Source: Rikenella microfusus (GTDB taxonomy: Bacteria > Bacteroidota > Bacteroidia > Bacteroidales > Tenuifilaceae). Taken from it: 55,691 nucleotides of DNA. The DNA lies in the NCBI GenBank assembly GCA_020722565.1, contig DYKO01000009.1:1-55691 (forward strand). Direction: 5' to 3'. The translations under genes were made by a program, and so were the position numbers. Shown here piece by piece: positions 38,901-45,917 of the stretch. Position 1 is the stretch's first letter. Each line of letters begins with the position of its first letter. Below the pieces are notes generated by a model. The model did not search any database, had not been told where the DNA came from, and saw nothing but the letters and a program-made list of their open reading frames with translations.

Positions 38901-40622
38901 TCAAGATTTTTGTTTAATATAACGGGTTGCAAAGTAATTCAAAATTAATCCCTGTATTTCAAGTGCAGCATCAAAAGGCTTAAAATTTTTAATATCGATA
39001 ACATAGGCATTTTCTAAACCCAAACGTTCAGCCACAAGCATAATATTTTCACGTCTAACGCTTATTATTAATGGATTTGATGTTACTTTAAGGTGATGCT
39101 CAATTAATCGCGACCAAACCTCACCAAAAAGCTCCATGCGTCCCACCTCGTCAATTACAAGAACATCCTCCGGTTCAAGTTTCAAAAACTTTTCCGTTAA
39201 TGAATCAATAACGTTTTGATCAAACTCAAACGACCGGTGAGGCAAGCCACATGCGCCTATCCTTTTACATAGCATTTTTTCCATTCCATCGGGAATGAGT
39301 TTTAATTTATAACCCTGTCGGAGCGGCGGTTCTCCAACCCCTTTAGCCAAAAAACCACATAACTTTAGATTATTAATAAGCATATTTGCAACCACTTCTT
39401 CAGTAAACGAGGTTTTACCTTCACCCAAGCCACCGGTAATAATAATAACTGGCCTTGGCCCATGCCATTTACTGCTACCAAGCATATCATGAATTACGTT
39501 CTTTACCCCCGCATTTAATGCTTTACCATTACTATTTAAAACATCCAGGTATATTGGTAGCGCATTAAACGCCATATTTACAGCAAGGTATAAACGGTTA
39601 AAAACGCCAGAGCTGAAAAAAAATTTGATTTCGGGTCTCGATAGTTCAATTCCAATTGCTGATAGCGAAACAATCACCAGCAGCGCCCTTGAAAAAATGT
39701 AAAATCCCTGCCCAATCACATTGTGTATAGGTGATGTAATAAAGGGTAATACAAATGAGAAAATCAACAGAGGCAGCATCACTTTAGGTTTTTGCATCAT
39801 TCGCCTTGGCTTTTCGTAAATGATAAGGCAAACAAATACATAAGCCAAAGCCATTGCTATTGATACCGTTTTAGGAACTTCAGCAGCAATGGATAAATAT
39901 ATTATGAGTAGAGCCAGATGCAATAGCGGATAAACAAATTTTATTGCCGAGTACGCACCGGCTTTATTTTCAAAAATAATAAAATCGATATTCGGCAAGT
40001 TGAAGTTTCTGGCTCTTAACCCAAACCCAATATAAACTGCAAGTAAGCCCAACAGAAAATATATTGCCAAAATTAGTACAACCAGAATGCTTCCATAAGA
40101 AATATTATTCGATTGAGGCAGAAATTTTAAAATATCAGAAAAAAATTGCCATATACTTTCACCATACATTATGTAAAGCCTGACAGCTTTAAATAACGGT
40201 ATTGAAACTAAAGCCAGCCCACCTCCTACTGCCAAACCTAAAAGATTTGCTCCTAAAATTAGGACCCCGATTTCAATAAGCGCTCCTTCCAGCGTTATTC
40301 CAATCATGGGCTGAAATACCACTACACTTGGCGAAATCGATTTTATTATAGCACAAATCAGTGCGGCCCGCAAGAAAAAACCGCGCTGAATAGCCACTCC
40401 CCCCAAAGAGCTTAAAGTTAACACACCCAAAAATGACAAAACCGTTCCAGCCAGCAGGGGCAGCATTAAATTATGCAGAGCTGAACCGAATGATAGTTCT
40501 AATGCACCCCATATACTTCCGGCAACAATAGCCCTTTGCCATAAAGGGCTGATAGTATTATTTCGCCAAATCCTGTTCACCCAATTTTTCCCTTGGATAC
40601 TTTGCCACAATAATGTAATCAA
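38901..40622 (-). CDS. Membrane protein fused to a THEP1-type NTPase; possible ECF-like transporter
   Basis: A 573-residue protein. Residues about 20-370 are hydrophobic with many membrane segments. The C-terminal about 180 residues are a P-loop NTPase of the THEP1 (nucleoside-triphosphatase) family: Walker A GGLGEGKTS at 397-405 and Walker B-like VLVIDEVGRMELFG near 487-500. The membrane part has two zones: a first with EGALIEIGVLILGANLLGLA, recalling ECF S-components, and a second with FYIFSRALLVIVSLSAIGIE and ALPIYLDVLNSNGKAL, recalling EcfT. This would be a one-chain energising transporter, which is inference. The ATG at 40622 overlaps the upstream gene by 65 bp; a GTG at 40580 is an alternative start. 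Confidence 0.7.
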   Translation of the reverse strand: MITLLWQSIQGKNWVNRIWRNNTISPLWQRAIVAGSIWGALELSFGSALHNLMLPLLAGTVLSFLGVLTLSSLGGVAIQRGFFLRAALICAIIKSISPSVVVFQPMIGITLEGALIEIGVLILGANLLGLAVGGGLALVSIPLFKAVRLYIMYGESIWQFFSDILKFLPQSNNISYGSILVVLILAIYFLLGLLAVYIGFGLRARNFNLPNIDFIIFENKAGAYSAIKFVYPLLHLALLIIYLSIAAEVPKTVSIAMALAYVFVCLIIYEKPRRMMQKPKVMLPLLIFSFVLPFITSPIHNVIGQGFYIFSRALLVIVSLSAIGIELSRPEIKFFFSSGVFNRLYLAVNMAFNALPIYLDVLNSNGKALNAGVKNVIHDMLGSSKWHGPRPVIIITGGLGEGKTSFTEEVVANMLINNLKLCGFLAKGVGEPPLRQGYKLKLIPDGMEKMLCKRIGACGLPHRSFEFDQNVIDSLTEKFLKLEPEDVLVIDEVGRMELFGEVWSRLIEHHLKVTSNPLIISVRRENIMLVAERLGLENAYVIDIKNFKPFDAALEIQGLILNYFATRYIKQKS

Positions 40623-40911
40623 TAGCCAAAATTAGCAAAAGCACAAACTCTACATTCTGAAACCCTATAAAATTTAATACAACCATTCCCAATAAAATAC
40701 CTAATGTGTATCGACGTATGCTATCGACATAGAGCAAGTTTTTGTAATTCCTTAAATAGAAATTAACCCGATGTAAGACTATTGGTAAAAACGAAAGGTA
40801 AAACAACCATACCCCAACCTTATAGGAAATCAATCTTGCAATACCAGAAACAATTAATAAAGCTACTGTAAAAAGTATAAGTTTGCGCTCTGAAATTTTC
40901 TTAGAAGTCAT
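40558..40911 (-). CDS. Small integral membrane protein
   Basis: A 117-residue protein starting at the ATG at 40911 (MTSKKISERKL); the frame is open up to 41016 but that part is unconvincing and would overlap the divergent peptidase start. Four hydrophobic stretches are visible, in two hairpins: KLILFTVALLIVSGIA, VWLFYLSFLPIVLH, YTLGILLGMVVLNFIGF and VEFVLLLILAIDYIIV. No family recognised. It overlaps the start of the membrane/NTPase fusion, so the two are translationally linked and may form one complex. Confidence 0.65.
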   Translation of the reverse strand: MTSKKISERKLILFTVALLIVSGIARLISYKVGVWLFYLSFLPIVLHRVNFYLRNYKNLLYVDSIRRYTLGILLGMVVLNFIGFQNVEFVLLLILAIDYIIVAKYPREKLGEQDLAK

Positions 40912-43889: not shown

Positions 43890-45917
43890 TTAAATATCGA
43901 ACCTATATTGTAAACCTGCACCAATCCAACGCTTGGGTTGCTGTACGTTAGCTATATCAACATATTCTTGATTTAGCATATTGGTAGCATCAATAAAAAT
44001 ATTTATTTTTCTGAAGCTGTAACCCAAACGCATATCAACCAACCAAAATTTTGAGTATTTTGTTGGTATAGAAGTATTGGCATCGATATACTTTAGGTAT
44101 TCCCCATTCCGATCCTGATAACGGGCAATCCAGTTAAAAAATAACGAACCTGCTGAATGATACCCACTAATTGCAAGGCTATGCTTTAAATTGTCGAGAA
44201 CATAGTATGAATCCATTTCCGTTCTTACCTTATCCGATTCGGTATAGGAATAATTAAGCGTCAGCTTATGAGTATAAATATTAAAGTTGCTTAAATCAAT
44301 CTGGACAAAAAAGTTGGCTCCACGCGTGTTCAATTTGGTGTAGTTAATGGTAGTCCACACGGTTTCAGTGGGTTGCTTAACCCAATCAATAATATCAGTT
44401 CCCTGCCTGTAAAATAGCGCCAGTTCTGCTTTCAGATTAGCAATTTGCGACTTAATTCCGCCCTCGTAGGTTGTAGCAAATTCAGCCCTAAGATTTGGAT
44501 TGCCAACATTTGATGCTCCCTGGTAGTATAAATCGGTATAGGTGGGTAGCCGGAACGATCTGTTGACCGATGCAAAGGGTTTTAGGAAACTTAAATACCC
44601 ATAGGACAAATCGATACCCCAAGTATAAATATTACCATAATGATTTGTGATATTAGCCTGACCACCAGTAGAAAAAGCAAAATTGGATAAGTAAAATACC
44701 TGGGTGGCATACAATGCTAACGAGTTTCTGGAACCGCCCATTTTGTAATAGGCATTTTCGCCCCAAACCTTTACGGAATCTACTAACGATGTACCCAATT
44801 TGTTGCTCAGAATCTCTTCTCTTCTCAGCTCTACACCAGCATCAGTCTTTCCCCATCTGTATAAACGAGCTGCAGAAAATTTAGCCCCATAAATGTCGGT
44901 GGTGTGGTAATTATGGTTGCTATACCAAGCCGGGGGGTTGCTCCTGAAAAGTTCAAACCTGTCGAAATGCTTGCGATAGTAAACACTCGCATTTAAATCG
45001 AATAGACCCTTGCTCCACTGGTATCCAAGTGAAGATAAAAATACACGAGTTGCCTCAAATTGGTTGGGGTATTTTGGCGTATAAAAGCTGTTGGCACCAA
45101 ACGACTTATCCTGAAATCCGGCAAAAAAGTTTACCTCATCGGCCTTAATCTTATAGGTTGAATGGATAAAAAAATTGGTTGTTTTGAAATCGGTATTGTC
45201 GATATATCCATTGCTTTTTTCGTATGATCCAGATGCAAAAATTCTTATTTTATCGTTGCCAAAATTCTGCGAGGCGTTTAGCTTCATCAATCCGTACTCA
45301 GAACCAAACACCGAAAGCAAGCCCCTATTGCGTTCATTTGGTTTTGTGATTATATTGATGGCCCCTGCAAATGCCCCTGCACCGAATTCACGGGCTCCAG
45401 GGCCCTGAAGTATCTCAATTCTTTCAATTGCATCAAGATTTATAGGAATGTTAAGGTTATGATGGCCAGTTTGCGGATCAGTGATATTCACTCCGTTCAG
45501 CATGATCAGAACCTGGTCAAAGGTTCCGCCCCGTAAATTGATATCGGCCTGCACCCCATGAGCACCACGTTGCCTAATGTCAATTGCCGTTAACTGCTCC
45601 AGCAGTTCGCCTAAAGGCGCTGTACTACGTTGCCCCAAATCATCACGGCTTAAAACAGTTACTACTCTTGTGAGTTCCGAGTAGGTTGACGCCTTTTTAC
45701 TGGCATTTACCACAACCTCTTCAACATCAACATTTTTTGTAATGGCAACGCTGTCGGTTTGTGCAAATGTTGCCATTGGTAAAGCCAATAAACAGTAGGA
45801 TAACGGTAAAACACCTATGGTTACCACTCCCTTAAAGCTGTTAAATACAGCATACCCCTTACGGGTCCAGTTGGTAAAGCGCGTTACTTTACCTTGATAA
45901 AAGGAAAGCATCATCAT
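43890..45917 (-). CDS. TonB-dependent receptor, BtuB-like
   Basis: A 675-residue outer-membrane receptor without the carboxypeptidase-like domain. The N-terminus is long (about 52 residues to ATFAQ) and has an extended form: TNWTRKGYAVFNSFKGVV then a hydrophobic core, recalling ESPR-like extended signal peptides. The plug carries SRDDLGQRSTAPLGELLEQL, INLRGGTFDQVLIMLNGVNI and IEILQGPGAREFGAGAFAGA, the arrangement of siderophore/cobalamin receptors. The barrel ends GAGLQYRFDI. Cobalamin is a guess from similarity to BtuB; no B12 riboswitch is seen upstream. A second ATG and a third follow the first, so the exact start may be 45917-45911. Confidence 0.85.
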   Translation of the reverse strand: MMMLSFYQGKVTRFTNWTRKGYAVFNSFKGVVTIGVLPLSYCLLALPMATFAQTDSVAITKNVDVEEVVVNASKKASTYSELTRVVTVLSRDDLGQRSTAPLGELLEQLTAIDIRQRGAHGVQADINLRGGTFDQVLIMLNGVNITDPQTGHHNLNIPINLDAIERIEILQGPGAREFGAGAFAGAINIITKPNERNRGLLSVFGSEYGLMKLNASQNFGNDKIRIFASGSYEKSNGYIDNTDFKTTNFFIHSTYKIKADEVNFFAGFQDKSFGANSFYTPKYPNQFEATRVFLSSLGYQWSKGLFDLNASVYYRKHFDRFELFRSNPPAWYSNHNYHTTDIYGAKFSAARLYRWGKTDAGVELRREEILSNKLGTSLVDSVKVWGENAYYKMGGSRNSLALYATQVFYLSNFAFSTGGQANITNHYGNIYTWGIDLSYGYLSFLKPFASVNRSFRLPTYTDLYYQGASNVGNPNLRAEFATTYEGGIKSQIANLKAELALFYRQGTDIIDWVKQPTETVWTTINYTKLNTRGANFFVQIDLSNFNIYTHKLTLNYSYTESDKVRTEMDSYYVLDNLKHSLAISGYHSAGSLFFNWIARYQDRNGEYLKYIDANTSIPTKYSKFWLVDMRLGYSFRKINIFIDATNMLNQEYVDIANVQQPKRWIGAGLQYRFDI

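Follow-up and report, generated by a model that had tools for sequence, protein, structure and literature searches.

A membrane protein fused to a THEP1-type NTPase is a candidate uptake system for molybdenum cofactor in Bacteroidota

The stretch of Rikenella microfusus DNA analysed here (55,691 nucleotides, contig DYKO01000009.1 of assembly GCA_020722565.1; the whole stretch is called the window below) encodes on its reverse strand, at 38901-40580, a protein in which about 373 membrane residues precede a nucleoside triphosphatase (NTPase) domain of the THEP1 type. Judged from genome comparisons, this fusion family probably takes up molybdenum cofactor (Moco) or molybdopterin. Its membrane protein is the one thing found here to be common to genomes that have molybdoenzymes and no MoaC; with the pterin pathway lost, a molybdoenzyme depends on cofactor from outside.

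The distribution was examined in 178 genomes of the order that are at least 90% complete. The membrane protein is present in 57 of them (carriers were read from the table of match places, leaving out stand-alone NTPases and weak NTPase-only matches to generic P-loops), MoaC in 80, MoaA in 80, MoeA in 82 and the molybdoenzyme family PF00384, counted at E 1e-10, in 105. PF00384 is found in 55 of the 57 carriers and is missing in 71 of the 121 non-carriers, a pattern that fits a salvage transporter, which should be missing from genomes that do not use the cofactor. Eighteen carriers have no MoaC; none of these has MoaA (0/18), three have MoeA (3/18) and all have PF00384 (18/18). Chance misses of genes look rare, because the 80 genomes with MoaC are seldom without MoaA (one genome) or MoeA (two genomes).

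MoaC is missing in 98 genomes altogether, and 11 non-carriers among them have PF00384. Eight of these 11 have no PF01568, for which reason we take their PF00384 match to be probably the complex I subunit only; the other three are G045, G139 and G065, which have split or truncated forms of the system. With these three, the system or its split form is present in 20 of the 20 MoaC-less genomes with PF01568, which come from 16 families (17 were found by profile search, three by reading the locus), as comparative genomics would expect of a cofactor salvage transporter. The 77 MoaC-less genomes without the system lack either PF01568 (the eight tested) or PF00384 (69). Fisher's test gives 6e-20 for 20/20 and 4e-15 for the 17/20 found by profile, both uncorrected for kinship. 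The association with molybdoenzymes where moaC and moaA are undetected is one-way. Four same-genus pairs differ in having MoaC (G143/G033, G118/G202, G088/G179 and G145/G036, with G145 not a carrier).

A second, weaker line of support comes from 40 genomes reached through the loci of relatives (40 of 80 loci). MoaC is missing in 19 of them, and 13 of these 19 have PF01568. The support is weaker because completeness is not given for these genomes and because other molybdoenzyme and tungsten families lie outside the search; the set also overlaps the 178 genomes (G212/G152, G217/G084, G223/G184, G226/G178, G233/G114 and G241/G036 share contig coordinates), so that at least two of the 13 (G223 and G241) had already been counted.

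Two of the three genomes assigned by locus reading, G045 and G139 (loci L131 and L132), combine a stand-alone protein resembling the first membrane half of the fusion, MobA and a stand-alone THEP1 with a complete NarGHJI operon. NarG is full length in both (TIGR01580 scores of 1857 and 1898, cut-off 1084) and is followed by the genes for the beta, delta and gamma subunits; both genomes are 99% complete and have no match to MoaA, MoaC or MoeA. The stand-alone membrane proteins (208 and 213 amino acids) match the first half with 81% probability (E 1.2e-5, score 41 versus at most 19.5 in 30 column shuffles) in a comparison that used a two-sequence profile, and the system may have its simplest form here. 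The third genome, G065, has THEP1, MobA and a membrane gene truncated by the contig end. MobA also lies directly upstream of the membrane gene in seven of the eight non-fused loci that were read, which are a part of all non-fused loci (L123, L125, L126, L129, L133, L142 and L143; not L144). At L142 (5436-10150), in a MoaC-less genome, MobA, the membrane protein and a one-chain xanthine-dehydrogenase-like molybdenum hydroxylase are encoded consecutively.

The preliminary description had proposed a survey of the genes near homologues, and this survey was productive: it points to molybdenum cofactor. A scan of one genome per species identified 230 relatives, and the locus set consists of the best 80, mostly from Bacteroidota with some from Elusimicrobia, with up to 10 kb on either side. 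Named isolates represented in it are Maribellus luteus and Lutibacter sp. B1, which both have MoaC, and Perlabentimonas gracilis. Seventy-seven of these loci include a gene upstream of the fusion; the nearest one, on the same strand, is of the DUF364/DUF4213 type in 28/77 (cluster count) and encodes a TonB receptor of one subfamily in 8/77. A ModE-like gene is at most five genes away in 11 of the 80 loci. At least one of DUF364, the TonB subfamily, ModE-like, MobA or xanthine dehydrogenase (XDH) is found within five genes in 43/80 loci, or in 48/80 when NifX-like and 4Fe-4S genes are added. These cluster identities rest on tested representatives, with ModE-like and MobA being best matches below the NCBIfam curated cut-offs; cluster 8 (molybdopterin oxidoreductase-like) was labelled without a family test, and dropping it leaves 48/80 unchanged. 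At L120, L121 and L128, the names of YeeE- and moa-cluster genes were given by eye, except for the MoaA, MoaC and MoeA matches.

Three loci have the ModE-like gene, TonB receptor, DUF364 and fusion as consecutive genes (L054, L066 and L075). The row at L122 (2593-9196) runs from a TonB receptor through DUF364 and the fusion to MoeA and a MogA/MoaB-like gene; its genome has matches to MoeA and to neither MoaA nor MoaC. The receptor beside the S-like/NarG operon of G045 belongs to the fusion-linked subfamily (506 bits; the next TonB receptors are those of L122 with 159 bits and of the window with 140 bits). The DUF364/DUF4213 gene belongs to the heavy-metal chelation family of structure 3L5O; unlike in the 28 loci, no such gene adjoins the fusion of the window. 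The DUF364 structure paper independently proposes flavin- or pterin-like ligands and a context of rare-metal transport (PMC2954201).

The fusion protein has 559 amino acids. The mechanically called open reading frame (ORF), 38901-40622 on the reverse strand, starts with TTG at 40622 and has 573 open codons; we set the start at the GTG at 40580, because homologues start just ahead of the conserved W14, and the stop codon is at 38901-38903. The chain consists of a first, 'S-like' membrane half (residues 1-192, 40005-40580), a second, 'T-like' membrane half (residues 205-373, 39462-39968) and the NTPase domain (residues 374-559, 38904-39461), all on the reverse strand. That a membrane protein is joined to a THEP1-type NTPase, as described before, was confirmed: residues 393-534 of the long ORF match PF03266 (NTPase_1) with 2.3e-16 and 60.5 bits (cut-off 23.9), and a structure model built with 80 sequences (mean predicted local distance difference test score 85.8, predicted template-modelling score 0.74) is helical to about residue 368 and has an alpha/beta domain thereafter. 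The family was matched in 35 of 60 related genomes. The alignments have 80 rows including the window (A2) and 78 rows (A3); near-duplicates were dropped (L035 from both, L069 and L094 also from A3).

The Walker A and DEVGRME motifs noticed earlier were likewise borne out: GGLGEGKT (residues 383-390, 39411-39434) and IDEVGRME (residues 476-483, 39132-39155), both on the reverse strand, contain G388, K389, D477 and E478, which are invariant in the 80 aligned sequences. The domain also matches the THEP1 structure 1ye8 by sequence (7.7e-5), and the only PDB matches of the fusion model in Foldseek with E < 0.001 are the THEP1 proteins 2i3b (human, 8.6e-5) and 1ye8 (Aquifex aeolicus, 1.1e-4). Sequence above the curated cut-off, Walker A, DE-type Walker B and the predicted RecA-like fold thus place it among THEP1/PF03266 proteins. 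The THEP1 structure paper, published in 2005, leaves the role unassigned and deals with single-domain proteins (PMC1079890); the family of the window differs from the solved THEP1s in having a membrane protein or MobA as fusion partner and in its link to molybdenum cofactor genes.

Conservation differs between the three parts: positions that are at least 90% identical number 40/192 in the first half, 12/169 in the second half and 14/186 in the NTPase (80 sequences), and mean column entropy is highest in the NTPase and lowest in the first half. Invariant in the first half are W14, W24, E28, S33, N37, R71, K80, S83, S85, P91 and M92, with H36 near-invariant; in the second half R298 is invariant and A299 near-invariant. 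The polar residues E28, S33, H36, N37, R71, K80, S83 and S85 are conserved as would be expected of a binding module. The chain is modular: the first half also occurs alone, and the NTPase alone or with MobA.

That the protein transports, and in which direction, what exactly it carries and what THEP1 does are inferred from these genomes, and the following pathway is proposed. The cofactor is too large for porins, hence a TonB receptor is expected; in relatives with the full set, passage through the outer membrane would be the task of the TonB-dependent receptor, and the fusion would be the inner-membrane part. Its first membrane half may bind Moco or molybdopterin, and the second may convert this binding into movement. 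Using ATP or GTP, the THEP1 domain would either power import or process and retain the cofactor ahead of the MobA step. MobA would then make the guanine-dinucleotide form, DUF364 could act on the pterin or its metal and the ModE-like regulator would control the gene set. The absence of MoeA from 15 of the 18 MoaC-less carriers favours metal-loaded cofactor over bare molybdopterin as cargo; in G046, with MoeA and a MogA/MoaB-like gene after the fusion, bare molybdopterin would suffice. BtuB-type uptake of large cofactors is similar in having a TonB receptor, found in the gene row of some relatives, and a scarce and bulky (here predicted) cargo; its inner-membrane partner is replaced in the family of the window by the fusion.

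Moco uptake can also be imagined with THEP1 acting on the cofactor as an enzyme, perhaps as a kinase that puts back a phosphate lost outside the cell and so traps the imported pterin, next to a membrane part that is a passive carrier. We regard this variant as a tentative option, favoured by the finding of THEP1 without the membrane part and of THEP1 joined to MobA, and by the NTPase being the most variable and the first membrane half the least variable part. Its weak points are that, according to the THEP1 structure paper, kinase activity could not be confirmed and the P-loop class argues against kinases (PMC1079890), and that one match spans the membrane and NTPase parts, on the same chain, in 40 of the 57 carriers (counted from the same table of match places). 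THEP1-MobA single chains are encoded at L127 (6907-8088) and L128 (5814-6977). Behind the fused gene at L128 lies what is left of the membrane gene: about 75 N-terminal residues, continued by a YeeE-like tail (by eye). The earlier suggestion that THEP1 is a transport-driving ATPase therefore stays a guess: the domain may drive transport or handle the cofactor, with the MobA fusion favouring handling and the usual membrane fusion favouring driving.

An importer of molybdate, tungstate or a metal chelate that replaces ModABC was our first reading after the neighbourhood survey, and we now consider it unlikely. It would account for the ModE-like regulators, DUF364 and molybdoenzymes nearby, and ModA is above its cut-off in only 3/57 carriers versus 27/121 other genomes; this contrast is not interpretable, because WtpA scores below the ModA cut-off, and the ModA evidence was dropped for this reason and because WtpABC is also encoded in the genome of the window, where it directly follows a ModE-like gene (L119, on the 5-kb contig G000:C2). 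A similar binding-protein transporter set of the ATP-binding cassette (ABC) type lies near the moa genes of G203 (by eye, with a Pfam match for the binding protein). Moreover, MoaC is missing in 21 genomes that carry the system, whole or split, and MoaA is missing in all 21 as well, so that molybdate alone would be useless to their molybdoenzymes by the known pathway. The fusion shares with ModABC, WtpABC and TupABC the link to ModE-like genes and molybdenum use; it differs in having no binding-protein, ABC permease or ABC ATPase domain among the domains listed for it, and it exists besides WtpABC in its own genome.

Somewhat less probable still, the MoaC-less genomes could use an unrecognised pterin route or molybdenum-independent enzymes, and the association would then reflect shared ecology and descent. 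Explanations of this kind are the biological ones in passages of a survey of orphan molybdoproteins, given there beside pseudogenes and incomplete assemblies; the survey counts 305 bacteria with molybdoenzymes and no complete Moco pathway (PMC6147048). The recurrence of the pattern in 16 families and four same-genus pairs speaks against it, and the presence of all four subunit genes in the nitrate reductase operons makes relics without cofactor less likely. Import of Moco is a possible answer to these orphans that those passages do not offer (PMC6147048). Among the explanations weighed here we give the smallest chance to a membrane-bound maturation or storage factor that is no transporter and anchors THEP1 and MobA for cofactor loading of molybdoenzymes: it fits the upstream position of MobA in seven of eight non-fused loci and the existence of THEP1-MobA fusions, and it leaves unexplained why PF01568 enzymes of MoaC-less genomes were found only with the system and why a TonB receptor adjoins.

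Several observations weigh against Moco uptake as the function of the family. The system is absent in 41 of the 80 genomes with MoaC, and the two carriers without PF00384 (G072 and G123) both have MoaC. G038 is a doubtful case, with the system and PF00384 and with neither MoaC nor PF01568, and the assignment of G045, G065 and G139 to the system came after their loci had been read. The genome survey covered MoaA, MoaC and MoeA for synthesis and PF00384 and PF01568 for molybdoenzymes, and gene absences are uncertain because many genomes are metagenome-assembled. Six of the 19 MoaC-less locus genomes have no PF01568, four of them Elusimicrobia. In 37/80 loci none of the five linked clusters lies within five genes, and the receptor at L122 is outside the linked TonB subfamily. 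Against THEP1 as a transport ATPase, THEP1 is fused to MobA instead in G097 and G187, where the membrane gene is not found or a remnant.

The window itself adds to these points: the neighbours of its fusion are a ferredoxin-oxidoreductase pair and an M28 peptidase, with no molybdenum genes. A TonB receptor is encoded 3 kb from the fusion on the same (reverse) strand at 43890-45917, with two opposite-strand genes between; it scores 140 bits with the profile of the linked subfamily. Because the genome of the window makes Moco (MoaA, MoaC and MoeA are present) and has WtpABC, the role of the fusion there would be salvage, and for the same reason this role is a transfer from relatives outside the genus, to which the fusion is 24-38% identical.

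The preliminary description had further compared the two membrane halves with an S-component and EcfT of energy-coupling factor (ECF) transporters, and profile comparison gives weak hints of this likeness. Comparison of the second half with 18 CbiQ/EcfT proteins by hhalign gives a score of 30.0 (E 9e-4, 24% probability), above the reversed profile (12.7), 30 column shuffles (at most 17.8) and other membrane families (at most 16.9). The first half and CbiM align over 37 columns with a score of 23.3 (2.5%; 14.8 for the reversed profile and no more than 17.6 for shuffles), and the whole membrane part scores 28.5 with CbiM (5%, spanning both halves) and 30.3 with CbiQ (11%); as the CbiM match spans both halves, the signal is not cleanly split between them. 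Among S-type components the comparison covered CbiM.

No support came from the other searches, which makes the ECF relation a weak one: the listing of 25 Pfam families for 78 members has no ECF family, CbiQ/EcfT (PF02361) included, and there is no sensible relative of the membrane profile among PDB sequences and no ECF protein or meaningful match among the best 50 of 196 Foldseek matches of the membrane model, which are long-helix matches with 19-31 Å root mean square deviation. The only PDB profile match of the membrane part, a calcium channel (E 0.0041), and weak Pfam matches of single members to unrelated families (best 0.00051, TgpA_N) were taken as chance. The suggested search for riboswitches covered 20 + 10 loci and, at gathering score, gave no riboswitch and a single tRNA. 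CbiQ was not found elsewhere in the window's own genome.

The similarities to ECF profiles are hints above controls, and the protein is possibly ECF-like. A modular S/T/NTPase reading is favoured by the lone first half, the lone NTPase and the first half being the most conserved part. Shared with ECF transporters (EcfS, EcfT and EcfA/EcfA') are the modular order (a small conserved membrane half, then another membrane half, then a P-loop NTPase), the micronutrient-type spread in genomes without biosynthesis and the weak CbiQ and lesser CbiM profile likeness. The window protein differs in being one chain, in the lack of an ECF protein among the Foldseek matches listed and in its NTPase, which is THEP1 (RecA-like) rather than an ABC-type ATPase such as EcfA: ABC_tran is absent from the five Pfam families listed up to E 10. 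The fusion may still work like an ECF transporter.

The small membrane ORF seen to overlap the start of the fusion gene is real. It encodes 117 amino acids on the reverse strand (40558-40911) and overlaps the fusion gene by 23 nucleotides; its ATG start at 40911 is the same in relatives, and 37 columns are invariant in eight sequences (window plus seven from the genus and a related genus). The protein has no Pfam match at E 0.001. In the loci read, this small-protein family (ISERKLILFTVGLL...) overlaps the fusion only in the window's genus and one related genus.

In the open-licence literature we found no described bacterial Moco importer. The phrase 'molybdopterin import cluster' is used in one passage of a paper, with no tests in that passage (PMC4511579), and a passage of another, likewise with no tests there, suggests some type 11 secretion system (T11SS) proteins to act in molybdopterin uptake (PMC12282271).

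We see about an even chance that a membrane family of unassigned fold and THEP1 together form a bacterial Moco uptake system, that Moco is an exchangeable, vitamin-like compound in Bacteroidota and some other phyla, that this explains orphan molybdoproteins, and that THEP1, which has a human homologue too, gains its first cellular setting. If true, orphan molybdoproteins would have a further explanation, a Moco importer, that can be tested directly, and THEP1 would be placed in a pathway. Anaerobic respiration of nitrate or sulfur compounds in many Bacteroidota could then depend on neighbours for the cofactor.
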